A DNA stretch of 64,000 nucleotides, taken from contig NZ_CP032100.1 in the NCBI RefSeq assembly GCF_003544815.1, forward strand, positions 248,001-312,000. Direction: 5' to 3'. Shown piece after piece: positions 6,559 to 18,891 of the stretch. Source of the stretch: Arcobacter suis CECT 7833. Its GTDB lineage: Bacteria > Campylobacterota > Campylobacteria > Campylobacterales > Arcobacteraceae. Position numbers and translations under genes: made by a program. The notes beneath the pieces are model-generated. The model saw nothing but the letters and a program-made list of their open reading frames with translations, was not told the origin of the DNA and ran no database searches. Within the stretch, counting starts at the first letter, position 1, and the number at the start of each line of letters is the position of its first letter.

Positions 6559-9500
6559 ATACCACCAATAATTACTTTAACAGGAAGTACAGTAATAGAG
6601 GTTACTGATGGAACAGCAACTGGAAATAAAGTAAAAGCAACAGTTACTGCAAGTATCGATAAAGCACAAGTAGAAGATTTAATAATAACATTAGACAATA
6701 ATGAACAAATTATAATTAGAGCAGGTGAAATCTCAGGAAGTATTGAGGTTGAAACTACAAGAATAGATGATGCTTATCAACAAGGTACAACAACAGAAAC
6801 CGTATCTATAAAAAGTACATCAAATTCTAAAATAGATGTATCAGAAAAAATAGCAACTATTACAATAAAAGATGATATTGATCCAATTGATGTAACAATC
6901 ACAGCAATAGCGACAACACCTAAAATTATTGATGTAAATACAAAAACAGATGGAACTAATGGTATAAAAATTACAGCTATTGGTAATGATGGTAAAGTAA
7001 CAAATTTATCAGTTATTAAAGGAACAGATCATGATGGATTTGGAGTGGAAACTCTAGTAACAACAACTAGTGGTAAAGGAAAAAATCAAGTAACGACAAC
7101 TACTTCTGTAGAGAATTCAAATGGTGATACACAAGAACTTGGAATGGGTGAGAAAATTGTTGTTGAGTTTACAGATGCAGATGTTAATTCTCTTGACGTA
7201 TCATTTGCATGGAGAAATAACCATGAAACAGCGAGAATTACATTTATAAATGATGGTAAAGTTGTAGGTTATGCAGAAGTTAAAGGAGATGGACAAAGCA
7301 CAACGAAAGCTATTGTTACTTACTATAATGAAAATGGTGAAGTAATCAAAGTAGTAAATGCAAAAGGAAGTTCAGATAAAGTTGATGAACTATTTACTTT
7401 TGAATTACCAGATTCAAATGGTAATTTAATATCATTCGATAGAGTTGAGTTCTCTTCACCAACAAATATTGATGATTATTTAATCAATTCTATAGTTTAT
7501 AAAGAAGTAGTAAATACAAAAATTGTTGATGTAATAACTGAAGGTGGAAAAGTAACATTTAATATTCAAACAGATGAAAATTATCCTCCACAAGGAAAAA
7601 TAATAGCTGTAGTTGAAATAAATGGTAAAACATATGAAGTTGAACTAAATGCTACAGGTAGAGGAACTTTAACTATAGATCCTAAAGATTTAGGTGATTT
7701 ATCAAATGTAGTTGCAAGAATAGTAGAAATTAAAGGCGGAAACTATGAAGGTGTAAATACTTCAGGAACTGTATTTGATTTTGTTTCAGGAACTGTAACT
7801 CCAGGAACAGCAATTTCTTCTGATGATAGTATTGTAACAAATGAAGATACAGCTTATATTTTAAAAGTAACTGATTTTGGTGATGTTTCTCAAAATACTA
7901 TAGAGTTTAAAATTACTAAATTACCAGAAAATGGAAAACTTTATTTAATAGTTACAAAAGGTGAAACTATAATAGATAAAGATGGAAATACAATTATTGC
8001 AATTGAAGATACAAAAGTTGAGATTACAAAAGACCAAATTATTTCTTTAGCTGATATTGGTGCCAAAAAAGTAGTATTTGAACCAACTACAAATAGCGAT
8101 AAAGATGGAAGTTTTAAATTCTCTGTAGGTGATGGAAGTGGAAACTTTAGTAATGAATATACAACAACTATTAATGTTATTGCTGTTGCTGATGCACCAG
8201 AATTAACTGTAAATATTACGAAAACAGGAACGAGCGAAGTTACAGTTGGAAGTGGGAGTAATGGAAATAGCGGAAGTGGCTCTGATATTAAAGAGCTAAA
8301 AGTATTAACTTCTGAAAAAGCAGTAGCTGATTGGGGAAATAATTCTCAAGATATTAATTGTAATTTGAAATTTAGTGGAACAGTTGATAAAACATTCCAA
8401 AACTTTAATAGTGGAAGTGTAACAACAGGTTCTGGCAATGATATATTAAGATTTGCAAGTGTAAATAATAATAAAGTTATAAATACGGGTTCAGGAGATG
8501 ATAAAGTTATTTTCAATCAAACTGCAAGTGTAGCTTTAAATCTAGGAAATGGAAATAATGAAGCCGATTTTGTTGGTGGATTTAAAGGAAGTCTTGCTTC
8601 TGCTGAAGGTAATGATAAAGTTATAGTAAACCAAAGTGCAGAAGGTTCAATTAATTTAGGAGAAGGAAATAATTCTATTAGTATCGCTGGCGTATTATCA
8701 GGGAGTGTTGCAACGGGAAGTGGTAATGACACCCTTATTGTGGGACAAAACATACAAAATAAATCAAGTATTGATTTAGGAGATGGAGATAATACAATTA
8801 GTGTTGGTGGAACTTTTGAAGGAAATATTACCACAGGAGTAGGAGTTGATAAGATAATTATTAATGGAAATATCAATGGTAATGGCAATAGTATCTCAAC
8901 AGGTGCAGGAAATGATTTTGTTCAAATTAATGGACAAGTTAATAATGTAAATGTAAATCTTGGTTTAGGTAATGATGGAATTAGATTTAATCCAGGTAAT
9001 TTCAATGATTTTAGAAATAGTACATTTGATGGTGGAAAAGGATTTGATACTTTATACCTTGAAGGTTCAATAAGTAATTATGGTGTTATAGATAAAGCAA
9101 CAGGTAAAATAATTACATGGACAGAATATGTATCGTTAAACAAAAATGATGAGGGATATGCAAATAAAGAATTCTATATTTATAAACAAAATACAAATCA
9201 AGCGATTACTGTAAAAAATATCGAACAAATTGTATTTAGCGATGAAACAGTAGGTGAAAAAGAAGATACAGTAACTGTTTACAACTATGATATTTCAGTA
9301 AATGCAAAACTTACTGATATAGATGGCAGTGAAAAATTATCAAATGCAACTTTACAAAATGTGCCAGAAGGTTCAAAAGTATATGGAAGTGATGGGATAG
9401 AAATTATTGCTGATGAAAATGGAGTTTATTCTATAAAACTTGATGAGAATGGTGAATCAAAACTTACTTTAACAAATGAAAAAGAGCTTTCAGATACAGA

Positions 9501-9888
9501 ATTAAATAGCATTAAAACAAGTGTTACTTCAACAGATACCCCAACTGATGGAAAAGAAGAAAGTTCACAAGCTACTACTTTTGATGGAGAAGGTGATATT
9601 GACCTGACGAGTATAATTGGACAATATAAAGTTAATTATGTGGATCTTGAAAATGGTAAGGCTAATGATATAAAATTAAATTTTGATGAAATATTAGCTG
9701 ATGATAAAGAGATTTATATAAAAGGTGATGATAAAGATAGTATCAGTTTAAATTCCGATTTATGGAAAGAAGCTGAAGCAACTAATGTTGATGGTGTAAA
9801 ATATAATGTTTATACTGGAACAAATGGTGCTAATTCAACAATTAAATTATTAATTGATGATGATATACAAGTAAATCACGATATTTAG
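1..9888 (+). CDS. Giant RTX-type repetitive adhesin, 5' end outside window
   Basis: The frame is open from base 1 to TAG at 9886-9888 (3295 codons) with no credible start, so this is the 3' part of a longer gene. Order: 21 identical 103-residue Thr/Asp-rich beta-domains plus a 23-residue piece (to 6558); a divergent Ig-like domain (about 6559-6890); a further beta-rich domain (about 6890-7510); Ig/cadherin-like domains (to about 8215); about ten degenerate RTX motifs such as TGSGNDILRF, LGDGDNTISV and TGAGNDFVQI (8425-9060); and a C-terminal segment typical of type I secreted proteins, with Asp/Asn/Ser/Ile-rich ending. By family knowledge this is a LapA/Bap-like surface adhesin exported by a T1SS, its repeats stiffening in calcium. 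No T1SS genes lie in the window; they may be upstream. The GTG at 7045 is only an internal codon. Confidence 0.9.
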   Translation, partial: VVSDKGIIENPVVNAGTLTVQDSTDTTTVTVGTATVNEDATTAIVKVTLAGHIFKTGETVTVTLADGTEVEFTQNGSKDATFTFTADSDSIIEADATKDITATVVSDKGIIENPVVNAGTLTVQDSTDTTTVTVGTATVNEDATTAIVKVTLAGHIFKTGETVTVTLADGTEVEFTQNGSKDATFTFTADSDSIIEADATKDITATVVSDKGIIENPVVNAGTLTVQDSTDTTTVTVGTATVNEDATTAIVKVTLAGHIFKTGETVTVTLADGTEVEFTQNGSKDATFTFTADSDSIIEADATKDITATVVSDKGIIENPVVNAGTLTVQDSTDTTTVTVGTATVNEDATTAIVKVTLAGHIFKTGETVTVTLADGTEVEFTQNGSKDATFTFTADSDSIIEADATKDITATVVSDKGIIENPVVNAGTLTVQDSTDTTTVTVGTATVNEDATTAIVKVTLAGHIFKTGETVTVTLADGTEVEFTQNGSKDATFTFTADSDSIIEADATKDITATVVSDKGIIENPVVNAGTLTVQDSTDTTTVTVGTATVNEDATTAIVKVTLAGHIFKTGETVTVTLADGTEVEFTQNGSKDATFTFTADSDSIIEADATKDITATVVSDKGIIENPVVNAGTLTVQDSTDTTTVTVGTATVNEDATTAIVKVTLAGHIFKTGETVTVTLADGTEVEFTQNGSKDATFTFTADSDSIIEADATKDITATVVSDKGIIENPVVNAGTLTVQDSTDTTTVTVGTATVNEDATTAIVKVTLAGHIFKTGETVTVTLADGTEVEFTQNGSKDATFTFTADSDSIIEADATKDITATVVSDKGIIENPVVNAGTLTVQDSTDTTTVTVGTATVNEDATTAIVKVTLAGHIFKTGETVTVTLADGTEVEFTQNGSKDATFTFTADSDSIIEADATKDITATVVSDKGIIENPVVNAGTLTVQDSTDTTTVTVGTATVNEDATTAIVKVTLAGHIFKTGETVTVTLADGTEVEFTQNGSKDATFTFTADSDSIIEADATKDITATVVSDKGIIENPVVNAGTLTVQDSTDTTTVTVGTATVNEDATTAIVKVTLAGHIFKTGETVTVTLADGTEVEFTQNGSKDATFTFTADSDSIIEADATKDITATVVSDKGIIENPVVNAGTLTVQDSTDTTTVTVGTATVNEDATTAIVKVTLAGHIFKTGETVTVTLADGTEVEFTQNGSKDATFTFTADSDSIIEADATKDITATVVSDKGIIENPVVNAGTLTVQDSTDTTTVTVGTATVNEDATTAIVKVTLAGHIFKTGETVTVTLADGTEVEFTQNGSKDATFTFTADSDSIIEADATKDITATVVSDKGIIENPVVNAGTLTVQDSTDTTTVTVGTATVNEDATTAIVKVTLAGHIFKTGETVTVTLADGTEVEFTQNGSKDATFTFTADSDSIIEADATKDITATVVSDKGIIENPVVNAGTLTVQDSTDTTTVTVGTATVNEDATTAIVKVTLAGHIFKTGETVTVTLADGTEVEFTQNGSKDATFTFTADSDSIIEADATKDITATVVSDKGIIENPVVNAGTLTVQDSTDTTTVTVGTATVNEDATTAIVKVTLAGHIFKTGETVTVTLADGTEVEFTQNGSKDATFTFTADSDSIIEADATKDITATVVSDKGIIENPVVNAGTLTVQDSTDTTTVTVGTATVNEDATTAIVKVTLAGHIFKTGETVTVTLADGTEVEFTQNGSKDATFTFTADSDSIIEADATKDITATVVSDKGIIENPVVNAGTLTVQDSTDTTTVTVGTATVNEDATTAIVKVTLAGHIFKTGETVTVTLADGTEVEFTQNGSKDATFTFTADSDSIIEADATKDITATVVSDKGIIENPVVNAGTLTVQDSTDTTTVTVGTATVNEDATTAIVKVTLAGHIFKTGETVTVTLADGTEVEFTQNGSKDATFTFTADSDSIIEADATKDITATVVSDKGIIENPVVNAGTLTVQDSTDTTTVTVGTATVNEDATTAIVKVTLAGHIFKTGETVTVTLADGTEVEFTQNGSKDATFTFTADSDSIIEADATKDITATVVSDKGIIENPVVNAGTLTVQDSTDTTTVTVGTATVNEDATTAIVKVTLAGHIFKTGETVTVTLADGTEVEFTQNGSKDATFTFTADSDSIIEADATKDITATVVSDKGIIENPVVNAGTLTVQDSIPPIITLTGSTVIEVTDGTATGNKVKATVTASIDKAQVEDLIITLDNNEQIIIRAGEISGSIEVETTRIDDAYQQGTTTETVSIKSTSNSKIDVSEKIATITIKDDIDPIDVTITAIATTPKIIDVNTKTDGTNGIKITAIGNDGKVTNLSVIKGTDHDGFGVETLVTTTSGKGKNQVTTTTSVENSNGDTQELGMGEKIVVEFTDADVNSLDVSFAWRNNHETARITFINDGKVVGYAEVKGDGQSTTKAIVTYYNENGEVIKVVNAKGSSDKVDELFTFELPDSNGNLISFDRVEFSSPTNIDDYLINSIVYKEVVNTKIVDVITEGGKVTFNIQTDENYPPQGKIIAVVEINGKTYEVELNATGRGTLTIDPKDLGDLSNVVARIVEIKGGNYEGVNTSGTVFDFVSGTVTPGTAISSDDSIVTNEDTAYILKVTDFGDVSQNTIEFKITKLPENGKLYLIVTKGETIIDKDGNTIIAIEDTKVEITKDQIISLADIGAKKVVFEPTTNSDKDGSFKFSVGDGSGNFSNEYTTTINVIAVADAPELTVNITKTGTSEVTVGSGSNGNSGSGSDIKELKVLTSEKAVADWGNNSQDINCNLKFSGTVDKTFQNFNSGSVTTGSGNDILRFASVNNNKVINTGSGDDKVIFNQTASVALNLGNGNNEADFVGGFKGSLASAEGNDKVIVNQSAEGSINLGEGNNSISIAGVLSGSVATGSGNDTLIVGQNIQNKSSIDLGDGDNTISVGGTFEGNITTGVGVDKIIINGNINGNGNSISTGAGNDFVQINGQVNNVNVNLGLGNDGIRFNPGNFNDFRNSTFDGGKGFDTLYLEGSISNYGVIDKATGKIITWTEYVSLNKNDEGYANKEFYIYKQNTNQAITVKNIEQIVFSDETVGEKEDTVTVYNYDISVNAKLTDIDGSEKLSNATLQNVPEGSKVYGSDGIEIIADENGVYSIKLDENGESKLTLTNEKELSDTELNSIKTSVTSTDTPTDGKEESSQATTFDGEGDIDLTSIIGQYKVNYVDLENGKANDIKLNFDEILADDKEIYIKGDDKDSISLNSDLWKEAEATNVDGVKYNVYTGTNGANSTIKLLIDDDIQVNHDI

Positions 9889-15696: not shown

Positions 15697-15746
15697 AATT
15701 TAATATATCAACATATCTTGATATATTAAATTTATTCTGTTATACT
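15697..15746 (+). promoter_or_regulatory. ArsR operator overlapping the ars promoter
   Basis: A perfect 15-bp inverted repeat (15697-15711 and 15718-15732) with a 6-nt centre contains ATATCAA-N6-TTGATAT, the type of site bound by ArsR/SmtB repressors. The right arm supplies a -35 box TTGATA (15718-15723), then a 17-nt spacer and an extended -10 TGtTATACT (-10 at 15741-15746). Binding would occlude RNA polymerase, giving autorepression relieved by arsenite. Confidence 0.85.
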
Positions 15747-16445: not shown

Positions 16446-17692
16446 TAGTTGCAAGTTTAATTTTTATTGTTACTTTAATCTTTGTAATATGGCAACCTCG
16501 TGGTTTACAAATAGGAACAACAGCTGTTATTGGAGCTATTGTTGCTTTACTTGTTGGGGTTGTAAGTTTTTCTGATGTGATGATAGTGACAAATATAGTT
16601 TGGGATGCAACTTTAGCATTTATTGGAATTATTATTTTATCTATGGTTTTAGATGAAATTGGATTTTTTGAATGGGCTGCTTTAAAAATGGCAAAGTTTT
16701 CAAATGGAAATGGAATGTTAATGTTTATTTATTCTATTTTGCTAGGTGCTTTTGTTTCGGCACTTTTTGCAAATGATGGAGCAGCACTTATTTTAACTCC
16801 AATTTTACTTGCAAAAATGAGAATCTTACAATTAAATATGAAAACAATAGTTGCTTTTTTACTTGCAGGTGGATTTATAAGTGATAGTGCATCGCTTCCT
16901 TTTGTATTTTCAAACCTTACAAATATCGTAACAGCAAATTATTTTAGTATTGGATTTATGGAATATTTTTTAAATATGATTGTTCCATTTATTGTAAGTG
17001 TTCTTGTTTCAGTAGGATTTTTATGGTTACTTTTACGAAAAGATATTCCTAAAGTTGTTGATATAACTTTGTTAAAAGAGCCAAAAAGTGTTATTAAAAA
17101 TATGAATTTATTTTATTTCTCTTGGTTCTTTTTAGGCTTCTTATTATGTGCATATTTTTTAGGTGATGCTTATGATTTACCTATTTCAATTTTTGCTTTA
17201 GGTGGAGCAATTGTTTTTTTAATAATTGCCTCACTTTCAAAAACAGTAAAAGCAAGACACATTATAAAAGATGCTCCTTGGCAAGTTGTTTGGTTTAGTA
17301 TTGGACTTTATATTGTGGTTTATGGACTTAAAAATGCTGGTTTGACGGATTATTTAACGATTGTTTTAAAAGATTTAGCTTTAAGAGGTGACACAATTGC
17401 AATTATTGGAACAGGATTTATTGCAGCATTTTTAAGTGCTATTATGAACAATATGCCAACGGTTATGATTATGGATATTGCCCTTCATGATATACCAAAT
17501 CAAGCTTTAGCTTATGCAAATATTATAGGGTGTAACCTTGGACCAAAAATGACACCATTTGGTAGTTTAGCTACTTTATTATGGCTTCATGTTTTAGCAA
17601 AAAAAGGTGTGAAAATAGGCTTTTGGGAATACAGCAAATTTGGGCTTATTATTACGCCACCGGTTTTACTATTAGTGCTTTTAGCGGTTTAG
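16442..17692 (+). CDS. arsB: Arsenite efflux permease ArsB
   Basis: 416 residues, close to E. coli ArsB (429), with about 12 membrane helices. Recognisable ArsB blocks are VIWQPRGLQIG, LDEIGFFEWAALKMAKF, FANDGAALILTPILLA, FLLAGGFISDSASLPFVFSNL, GLYIVVYGLKNAGLTDYL, and AIMNNMPTVMIMDIA followed by IIGCNLGPKMTPFGSLATL. It extrudes As(OH)3 or antimonite across the inner membrane using proton motive force. It begins with an ATGA overlap with the preceding gene. No ArsA ATPase is present in the window. Confidence 0.96.
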   Translation: MIVASLIFIVTLIFVIWQPRGLQIGTTAVIGAIVALLVGVVSFSDVMIVTNIVWDATLAFIGIIILSMVLDEIGFFEWAALKMAKFSNGNGMLMFIYSILLGAFVSALFANDGAALILTPILLAKMRILQLNMKTIVAFLLAGGFISDSASLPFVFSNLTNIVTANYFSIGFMEYFLNMIVPFIVSVLVSVGFLWLLLRKDIPKVVDITLLKEPKSVIKNMNLFYFSWFFLGFLLCAYFLGDAYDLPISIFALGGAIVFLIIASLSKTVKARHIIKDAPWQVVWFSIGLYIVVYGLKNAGLTDYLTIVLKDLALRGDTIAIIGTGFIAAFLSAIMNNMPTVMIMDIALHDIPNQALAYANIIGCNLGPKMTPFGSLATLLWLHVLAKKGVKIGFWEYSKFGLIITPPVLLLVLLAV

Positions 17693-17695
17693 AAA

Positions 17696-17760
17696 TGACA
17701 AAAATAAATTTGTCAAAAATATTGACAAAATATTTTTTGTCAGAATTAAAGTGTTACAAT
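17696..17760 (+). promoter_or_regulatory. Two identical palindromes and an extended -10 before the TPR gene
   Basis: TGACAAA-N6-TTTGTCA occurs perfectly twice, at 17696-17715 and 17723-17742, offset by 27 bp. An extended -10, TGtTACAAT (-10 at 17755-17760), follows, so the second palindrome covers the -35 region. This looks like a dimer-binding operator pair. The inner arms (TTTGTCAA 17709-17716, TTGACAAA 17722-17729) can also pair as a hairpin followed by six Ts, so a terminator for arsB is an alternative reading. The motif differs from the ArsR site at 15697. Confidence 0.65.
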
Positions 17761-17794
17761 AGAGTATTAAATTATTTTCAGATTTGAGGTTATC

Positions 17795-18874
17795 ATGAAG
17801 CATTTTGTTTTATTTTTTATGTTTAGTTTTTTTATAGTTTTTAATATGGATGTCAATGCAAAAGTTGAGCTATCAGTAAATGAATACAAAATAGAGCAAC
17901 AGCAAAAAAGTATTGATGAACTCAAAGCTGAGATAAAAGAGCTAAAAAAAGAAATTGACGATACAAAAGAAAAGAAAATTGAAAATAAAAAAGATAATGA
18001 GAGTTTAGATAAAAGGATTGGGGATATTAGTGGTAATGTTGATAGGTTTGGGATTATTGCAGGGATATTAGGTTTACTTATTACTATTGTATCAGCAATC
18101 TCTGGTTGGTTAGGTTATACAAAGGCAAAAACTGAGTCGAAAGAAGTTGCAAAAGAAGAAGCTTATAAAGTAACAGAAAATTGGATAAAAAATGAAGCGA
18201 ATAAACAACTTCAAGACAAAATTAAAGAACTTGAAATAGATGCACAAGAAAAAATAGCGGAAGCTGTAAAAACTGCCAAAGATGAAATAAAACAGCAATC
18301 AGAAGCAGAAGATTTATTTTTACAAGGTAGAAGTTATCATTTAAATAAAGAATATGAAATTGCGAAAGAGTATTACAATAAAGCATTAGAAGCTGGACAT
18401 ATTAGTGCTTTAAATAATTTAGGTGCTTTATATTGTAAGCAAGGCAATTATGAAAAAGCAGAAAAATATTACAATAAAGCATTAGAAAGTGGTGATAATA
18501 GGGCTTTAATTAATTTTGGAAACTTATATAAAGATCAAAAAGAGTATGAAAAAGCAGAAGAGTTTTATAAAAAAGCAATAGATGCTGGATATACAGGTGC
18601 TTTAAATAATCTTGGAGTTTTATATAATGAGCAAAAAGAATATGAAAAAGCGGAAGAGTATTTTAAAAAAGCAATAGATGCTGGAATTAATGATGCTTTA
18701 AATAATCTTGGAAATTTATATTATGGGCAAAAAGAATATGAAAAAGCAGAAGATTATTATAAAAAAGCAATAGATGCTGGAAATAATAGTGCTTTAAATA
18801 ATCTTAGAATTTTATATACCGAGCAAAATGAGCATACAAAACTAGAAGAACTAAATCAAAAATATAAAATTTAA
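17795..18874 (+). CDS. Membrane-anchored TPR-like repeat protein within the ars cluster
   Basis: 359 residues. A signal peptide or anchor (MKHFVLFFMFSFFIVF, cut near residue 22) is followed by a charged coiled coil (about 30-75), a membrane helix (about 85-108, GIIAGILGLLITIVSAISGWLGY), a second Lys/Glu-rich coiled coil (to about 168) and TPR-like helical repeats to the C-terminus. Four to five units of exactly 32 residues start with ALNNLGxLY and end KKAIDAG; 32 is shorter than the canonical 34-residue TPR. It is probably a scaffold or protein-interaction protein. It has its own promoter region and separates arsB from the arsC genes. It has no recognised arsenic function and may be an insertion. 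Confidence 0.75.
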   Translation: MKHFVLFFMFSFFIVFNMDVNAKVELSVNEYKIEQQQKSIDELKAEIKELKKEIDDTKEKKIENKKDNESLDKRIGDISGNVDRFGIIAGILGLLITIVSAISGWLGYTKAKTESKEVAKEEAYKVTENWIKNEANKQLQDKIKELEIDAQEKIAEAVKTAKDEIKQQSEAEDLFLQGRSYHLNKEYEIAKEYYNKALEAGHISALNNLGALYCKQGNYEKAEKYYNKALESGDNRALINFGNLYKDQKEYEKAEEFYKKAIDAGYTGALNNLGVLYNEQKEYEKAEEYFKKAIDAGINDALNNLGNLYYGQKEYEKAEDYYKKAIDAGNNSALNNLRILYTEQNEHTKLEELNQKYKI

Positions 18875-18891
18875 TTAGGAGAAAAAAAGAA

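Follow-up and report, generated by a model that had tools for sequence, protein, structure and literature searches.

Candidate tandem operators over the promoter of an inserted TPR gene in the ars cluster of Arcobacter suis and their recurrence before probable conflict genes

Two or three palindromic operators set at a fixed spacing over a promoter are known from phages lambda and 434. Palindromic operators over the promoters of immune genes are likewise a known kind, represented by BrxR, CapW, CapS and RptR. BrxR and CapW are reported as dimeric winged-helix WYL repressors with inverted repeats over or beside defence promoters (BREX, CBASS and others); the BrxR box is a single 11-bp inverted repeat with a 5-bp spacer, and the regulators are encoded beside their operons (PMC9122601). 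For RptR, tandem repeats are reported over a defence-island promoter in Gammaproteobacteria, with a 6-bp palindrome TAGCTA in 9-bp repeats, the regulator as the first gene of the island, and regulator and motif conserved in many genomes (PMC12255303). For CapK/CapS, a repressor is reported whose palindromic sites, built of TTAA half-sites, overlie immune promoters; among them is a wide palindrome with 10-bp spacing and cooperative binding. The genes for the kinase and the repressor lie upstream of the operon (PMC13373217).

The doubled palindrome described here lies in the ars cluster of Arcobacter suis CECT 7833, within a stretch of 64,000 nucleotides (the window) of its complete 2.64 Mb genome (G000). 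It shares with these systems palindromes placed over a promoter, but it has another sequence than the BrxR/CapW sites and is arranged in tandem at 27 bp, and no WYL gene was found among the nine ars-region proteins scanned. In these proteins no regulator besides ArsR was recognised, the only such domain being an ArsR-type HTH. TAGCTA repeats of the RptR kind are absent from 17690-17800, and, in contrast to the phage-type operators, no Cro/CI-type repressor lies beside the site. The literature searched, with subscription papers largely outside it, contained no description of this operator before defence genes; as far as found there, the sequence, the fixed 27-bp tandem geometry, the breadth of phyla and the lack of an adjacent regulator are new. 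The arrangement bears on how immune genes are silenced after jumps between hosts. A self-contained operator of fixed geometry before the same kind of gene in several phyla provides a DNA bait for the missing regulator and a sequence signature by which more conflict genes could be located.

Both copies of the doubled perfect palindrome noticed in the first-pass annotation between arsB and the TPR gene were found again (Table 1). They had been called identical 20-bp inverted repeats 27 bp apart; the 7-bp arms are the same, whereas the N6 centres differ, and 27 bp is the start-to-start distance, the gap being 7 bp. A lone repeat with 7-bp arms and N6 is ordinary in this AT-rich window, because 17 perfect ones occur in it where 60 first-order Markov sequences average 14.8. 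Two repeats sharing their arms and spaced 20-60 bp were seen once in the window and in none of the 60 Markov sequences. The genome search that had been suggested for TGACAAA-N6-TTTGTCA returned two perfect sites, both at this locus, and three more places at one mismatch, one in a stretch judged by eye to be coding and one overlapping the end of the upstream gene; the reversed pattern at ≤1 mismatch gave one match in the same genome.

Table 1 Features of the locus, in positions of the window
Feature	Position	Strand	Remark
Palindrome upstream of arsR, taken as ArsR operator	15697..15732	.	Different palindrome, 15-bp arms AATTTAATATATCAA...; role inferred from position
Insert (operators, promoter and TPR gene), approximate extent	17693..18875	+	By comparison with 28 same-genus arsB loci
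P1, weak promoter-like pair ATGACA, 17 nt, AATATT	17695..17723	+	9 of 12 matches; in the place of the strong ATPase-module promoter
Operator 1, perfect palindrome TGACAAAAATAAATTTGTCA (centre AATAAA)	17696..17715	.	Identical 20-mer in G036
Operator 2, perfect palindrome TGACAAAATATTTTTTGTCA (centre ATATTT), 27 bp downstream of operator 1	17723..17742	.	Identical 20-mer in G036
P2, extended -10 element TGTTACAAT, -35 region covered by operator 2	17752..17760	+	From sequence; same 9 bases in G036
TPR gene, 359 aa: hydrophobic N-terminus, coiled coil, membrane helix at about 85-104, TPR repeats	17795..18874	+	

The gene order of the cluster is arsR, a GGACT gene, arsB, the TPR gene, two LMW-phosphatase-type arsC genes and an ArsP-type permease. 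As the first-pass annotation had said, the doubled site is unlike the ArsR motif: the palindrome upstream of arsR has another sequence and longer arms, and the doubled site is therefore not an ArsR operator of that type. Judged from the arsB loci of the same genus, the site, the promoter and the TPR gene are an insertion of ~1.2 kb between arsB and arsC, bounded by the arsB stop (17692) and the ribosome-binding region of arsC. Neither the TPR head nor a site with ≤2 mismatches occurs at any of the 28 loci with readable downstream DNA (a 29th stops 2 bases past arsB); sites with exactly 3 mismatches lie within 1.5 kb at five of the 28, and none is better. No terminal repeats or target duplication were noticed by eye at the insert. 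The site may affect the downstream arsC genes through read-through.

A scan of the family found a perfect site in 5 of 104 genomes and the doubled form in three (G000, G025 and G036), while in G069 a perfect site and a copy deviating at one position stand at the 27-bp distance. In G036, which belongs to another genus, the doubled site immediately precedes a homologue of the TPR gene, the heads being 55% identical, and the pair is flanked by genes which we take to be mfd and eptA. The two sites are identical to those of the window at 40/40 positions, compared with 25/32 in the flanking promoter (Fisher p 0.0023) and 316/429 over the head of the gene (p 9e-6), rough values as positions are non-independent. 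The first-pass annotation had counted absence of the site from related strains with the same genes against its own reading; such absence holds for the ars genes and not for the TPR gene, with which G036 keeps the site. The doubled site is real, apparently under selection, and not mainly a feature of ars.

A profile of the TPR head gave strong matches in G000 and G036 only and weak ones in G105 and G081 (4/397 Campylobacterota overall). The last 192 residues of the G036 TPR protein are 40% identical to those of a second protein of the two-gene ATPase module described below. The window protein matches another such second protein, with 35% over 160 aa in the repeat region, though matches between repeats count for little. 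By this comparison the TPR gene resembles a module tail on a membrane-anchored head, under the operator of the module. The predicted model of the window protein has pLDDT 80.5, with the membrane part under 50, and its structure comparison gave generic TPR matches alone. PADLOC found for it weak matches to a generic TPR model (4.6e-8) and to JetC (0.0017), and no match for the G036 protein.

In a collection of 84,980 species genomes, an exact scan for two sites at 27 bp returned 11 loci, eight of which stand ahead of gene 1 of a two-gene ATPase module; among these eight, L075 is a decayed remnant and L069 shows the gene start alone before the contig ends. The other three are the TPR gene of G036 and two loci where no gene was recognised, L072 and L070, the latter being the G025 locus. 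The hosts are labelled Bacteroidetes, Acidobacteriota, Aminicenantes, Desulfobulbaceae, Catenovulum, Cryomorphaceae, Epsilonproteobacteria, Aliarcobacter and Arcobacter, mostly metagenome bins for which single labels may be wrong. Allowing ≤3 mismatches, the tandem site was found in 7/397 Campylobacterota, in 1/369 Gammaproteobacteria (the centre genome itself) and, with a 24-base core pattern, in 10/200 genomes of family f16; the reversed-pattern control gave 0 in each of the three. The f16 matches are 11 loci: seven modules, one KAP ATPase and three others. Overall, the operator with 27-bp period and two to three copies stands before the ATPase module in Campylobacterota, Bacteroidota, Acidobacteriota/Aminicenantes, Desulfobulbaceae and Catenovulum. 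When the search started from the protein, the second module protein was found in 4/397 Campylobacterota, and all four carry the tandem site at the 27-bp period (in G428 the two module genes are on different contigs). The link between operator and module is therefore no product of motif searching. Of the 16 tabulated module promoters, 12 were reached via the motif, and only the four protein-first ones are free of that bias.

At several copies (G025, G336 and L072) no gene could be recognised downstream, and two are ambiguous (G438 and G908). The G336 site (L080:1191-1237, 2 mismatches) has no recognised gene within about 450 bp behind it. The doubled site of G025 (L084:4032-4323) lies 16 bp outside an apparent Tn3-family end, and the contig ends 137 bp beyond. 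Decaying tandem sites were seen beside HigA-type genes at G463:C86 and in G908 (L175:5425-5471, L173:3436-3482), in a place where G904, a related genome, has a whole module; they look like the footprint of a lost module. The G463 locus has HigB and HTH_3 domains near the site. A HigA antitoxin was considered as the reader of the operator and set aside: these sites are mismatched, their loci lie where G904 carries the module, and the loci also hold an AACGTT palindrome of the kind known for HigA. We judged the sites relics.

All 16 tabulated module promoters have sites at 27 bp over the promoter, and nine have the exact TTGACA-N17-TATAAT (G331, G428, G032, G424, G851, G974, G923, L068 and L076). 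The -35 TTGACA overlaps the left arm of a site, the -10 lies in or at the 7-bp linker and, where there is a further site, it covers the predicted start; three tandem sites are present in several, among them G032, G851, G904, G937, L071, L073 and L076. The layout is the geometry expected for repression. With two perfect copies of TGACAA-N8-TTGTCA starting at 17696 and 17723, the window locus has the sites and the period of this class; it has the TPR gene only, with no gene 1 and gene 2 of the module downstream. Its promoter geometry is unlike that of the modules, the likelier -10 being downstream of both sites. When a sigma-70 promoter was sought with the -35 in a site arm and the -10 in the 7-bp linker, the weak promoter-like pair P1 was seen, with the conserved extended -10 of P2 further downstream. 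The G036 counterpart of P1 is in poor shape (AGTATT), and P2, with its predicted start, appears the likelier promoter of the TPR gene. The earlier description of sites overlapping the -35 region of an extended -10 promoter fits operator 2 and P2, and the -10 element is kept in G036.

Gene 1 of the module encodes an AAA/ATPase_2 protein and gene 2 an ATPase with C-terminal TPR/Sel1 repeats; the gene-2 protein at L077 matches winged-helix families including ArsR and MarR types. No solved structure matching the second protein by sequence was found. The model of its head (pLDDT 69) has a winged helix at about 300-359, and its best fold matches are archaeal Orc1/Cdc6 and STAND ATPases (2qby, 2v1u; Apaf-1, NLRC4), 2qby with E 2.2e-6. 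Orc1/Cdc6 proteins bind repeated DNA elements via a winged helix. The likeness has its limits, as the TM-scores are 0.26-0.31 from a moderate model, no origin function is implied and gene-2 proteins were not found in G000. The four modules with TGACAAC sites (G032, G424, G923 and G974) group together as a clade when gene 2 is used for the tree (support 0.925), a clade that the gene-1 tree does not support (0.331); G032 is from another family than the rest of the clade, and G937, of the same genus as the other three, is placed elsewhere. As this operator subtype coincides with a gene-2 clade across host families, promoter and gene have been inherited together, which does not in itself prove self-repression.

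Relatives of the module are carried by plasmids, and no TGACAA operator was seen in the upstream regions of seven of them (Moraxella, Agrobacterium, Sphingobium, Methylomonas, Malaciobacter, Marinomonas and Segatella). The Moraxella osloensis plasmid has three sites of TAACTAT-N6-ATAGTTA type, one imperfect, at the same 27-bp period (L097:5900-5986). A WYL gene adjoins the distant relative on the Segatella plasmid, and in an eighth record, L119, gene 1 is interrupted by an IS5 element. Since the architecture is kept while the letters change, and since the operator subtype is co-inherited with the gene-2 clade, a repressor borne by the module is favoured. The likeliest candidate is the co-inherited ATPase pair itself, because its second protein has a winged helix.

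We consider it fairly probable, with appreciable doubt, that the two palindromes act as tandem operators for a candidate repressor, probably dimeric, which controls the promoter of the inserted stand-alone TPR gene, and that they belong to a portable promoter class. The computed features behind this reading are the site, the insertion, the conservation of the site in two genera, its recurrence before the modules and the homology of the TPR tail. Such a repressor would sit on the tandem operators, neighbouring dimers would cooperate, and we infer repression because the sites cover the -35, the -10 or the start. The class would consist of two to three copies of TGACAA-N8-TTGTCA at 27-bp period over a sigma-70 promoter and would travel with probable conflict genes, chiefly the two-gene ATPase module. 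The module ATPases were tried as the regulator in G000 and rejected: the profiles of gene 1 and gene 2 gave no match there. The second module protein is absent from both G000 and G036, G036 having one weak gene-1 relative, and weak single ATPases occur in G036, G069 and G438. As no module ATPase is detected in G000 though the sites are conserved, the reader at the window locus would be some other trans-acting host factor, or else the site has become an orphan.

The latter, an operator that left an ATPase module together with the TPR gene, has no cognate repressor and leaves the gene simply on, is unlikely. The failure to find module proteins in G000 agrees with it, and mismatched copies at loci without modules (G463:C86, G908 and G438) indicate that relics exist. 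An unread site should decay, however, and so it counts against an orphan that both sites are perfect and are identical in another genus, also without the second module protein, while only 25/32 flanking positions agree. That a new regulator uses the sites to control the arsenic cluster itself is improbable. The first-pass annotation had suggested that a second regulator enters the cluster here, and the insert is indeed within the operon, ahead of both arsC genes; an operator-like doubled promoter site does imply a regulator other than ArsR, and this much of the suggestion stands. Control of the ars genes does not, as the element is part of an insert missing from 28/28 readable same-genus arsB loci, and elsewhere the site lies away from ars genes, among other genes in G036 and before ATPase-module genes in other phyla.

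It is very improbable that the palindromes are recombination or attachment sites, targets of a recombinase moving these cassettes. Insertions between genes of host operons (ars here, the cobalamin cluster in G974) would suit such a role, as would the position of the G025 site 16 bp from the end of a Tn3-family element, judged by eye, on a contig with a Tn3 transposase domain (2e-131) and a tyrosine recombinase. Yet the site is found on the promoter side of the genes only, the window has no other perfect site and so none at the far end of the insert, and in the modules the copies go with promoter elements. We give the least credence to a hairpin that would end or attenuate transcription behind arsB. 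The RNA over the site folds better than its shuffles, into a single long AT-rich hairpin (-15.7 kcal/mol, z -4.1), but no intrinsic terminator with a G-C-paired stem and T-run was found at the window site, and the element sits over a strong promoter in the module loci. The switch between termination and a new start, earlier ascribed to the inner arms, is not supported, as there is no terminator-like site and no U-run behind the hairpin. The own RNA of the ATPase modules would not carry the hairpin, since the predicted start is inside or adjoining the last site.

Returning to the tandem operators for a repressor, label and neighbourhood suggest an immune role for the genes behind them, and by these the modules and the TPR gene are probable conflict genes. 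The KAP ATPase behind the site of G463 is the PADLOC candidate PDC-S20 (1.7e-96), and the DinD-type gene beside, not behind, the site of G438 matches PDC-S13 (7.6e-113); the module proteins themselves gave weak matches in PADLOC. The Moraxella plasmid relative has a qatD gene in its vicinity. The G974 module is in a cobalamin gene cluster, beside a pair of retron I-B type RT and ATPase. It is possible, though we regard it as doubtful, that the cross-phylum operator defines a horizontally moving set of conflict genes, in which the Orc1-like STAND ATPase pair would be both the immune machine and its own repressor, engagement of an invader would lift the repression, and stand-alone genes such as that of the membrane TPR protein, bearing this operator too, would be switched on likewise or via a host relative of the repressor.

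Several further observations were made. In G974 (L177:1912-8574) cobalamin genes flank the retron I-B type RT and ATPase, and directly after these come a cobT-like gene and the module, preceded by its tandem operator. In G069 another ATPase follows cobT, and it seems that defence genes tend to settle in the cob cluster. Phage mimicry or a phage regulon was considered and rejected: exact tandem sites were absent from the viral contigs, and a partial tandem pattern occurred at two loci, one inside a reading frame. In the viral contigs (L124-L151) TTGACAA-N8-TTGTCA-NN-TATAAT was seen at 28 loci (about 16 groups by eye), versus six with a scrambled half-site. These are strong sigma-70 promoters with a -35 made palindromic by the spacer; they are single copies, several of them before tRNA-like sequences. 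With ≤1 mismatch in the half-site, three of the 28 loci (L135, L138 and L139) have a second promoter made by the same palindrome on the other strand. Elsewhere in the window, at 7045-9888, a reading frame of 947 aa with glycine/aspartate-rich repeats resembles, by eye, a secreted calcium-binding repeat protein.
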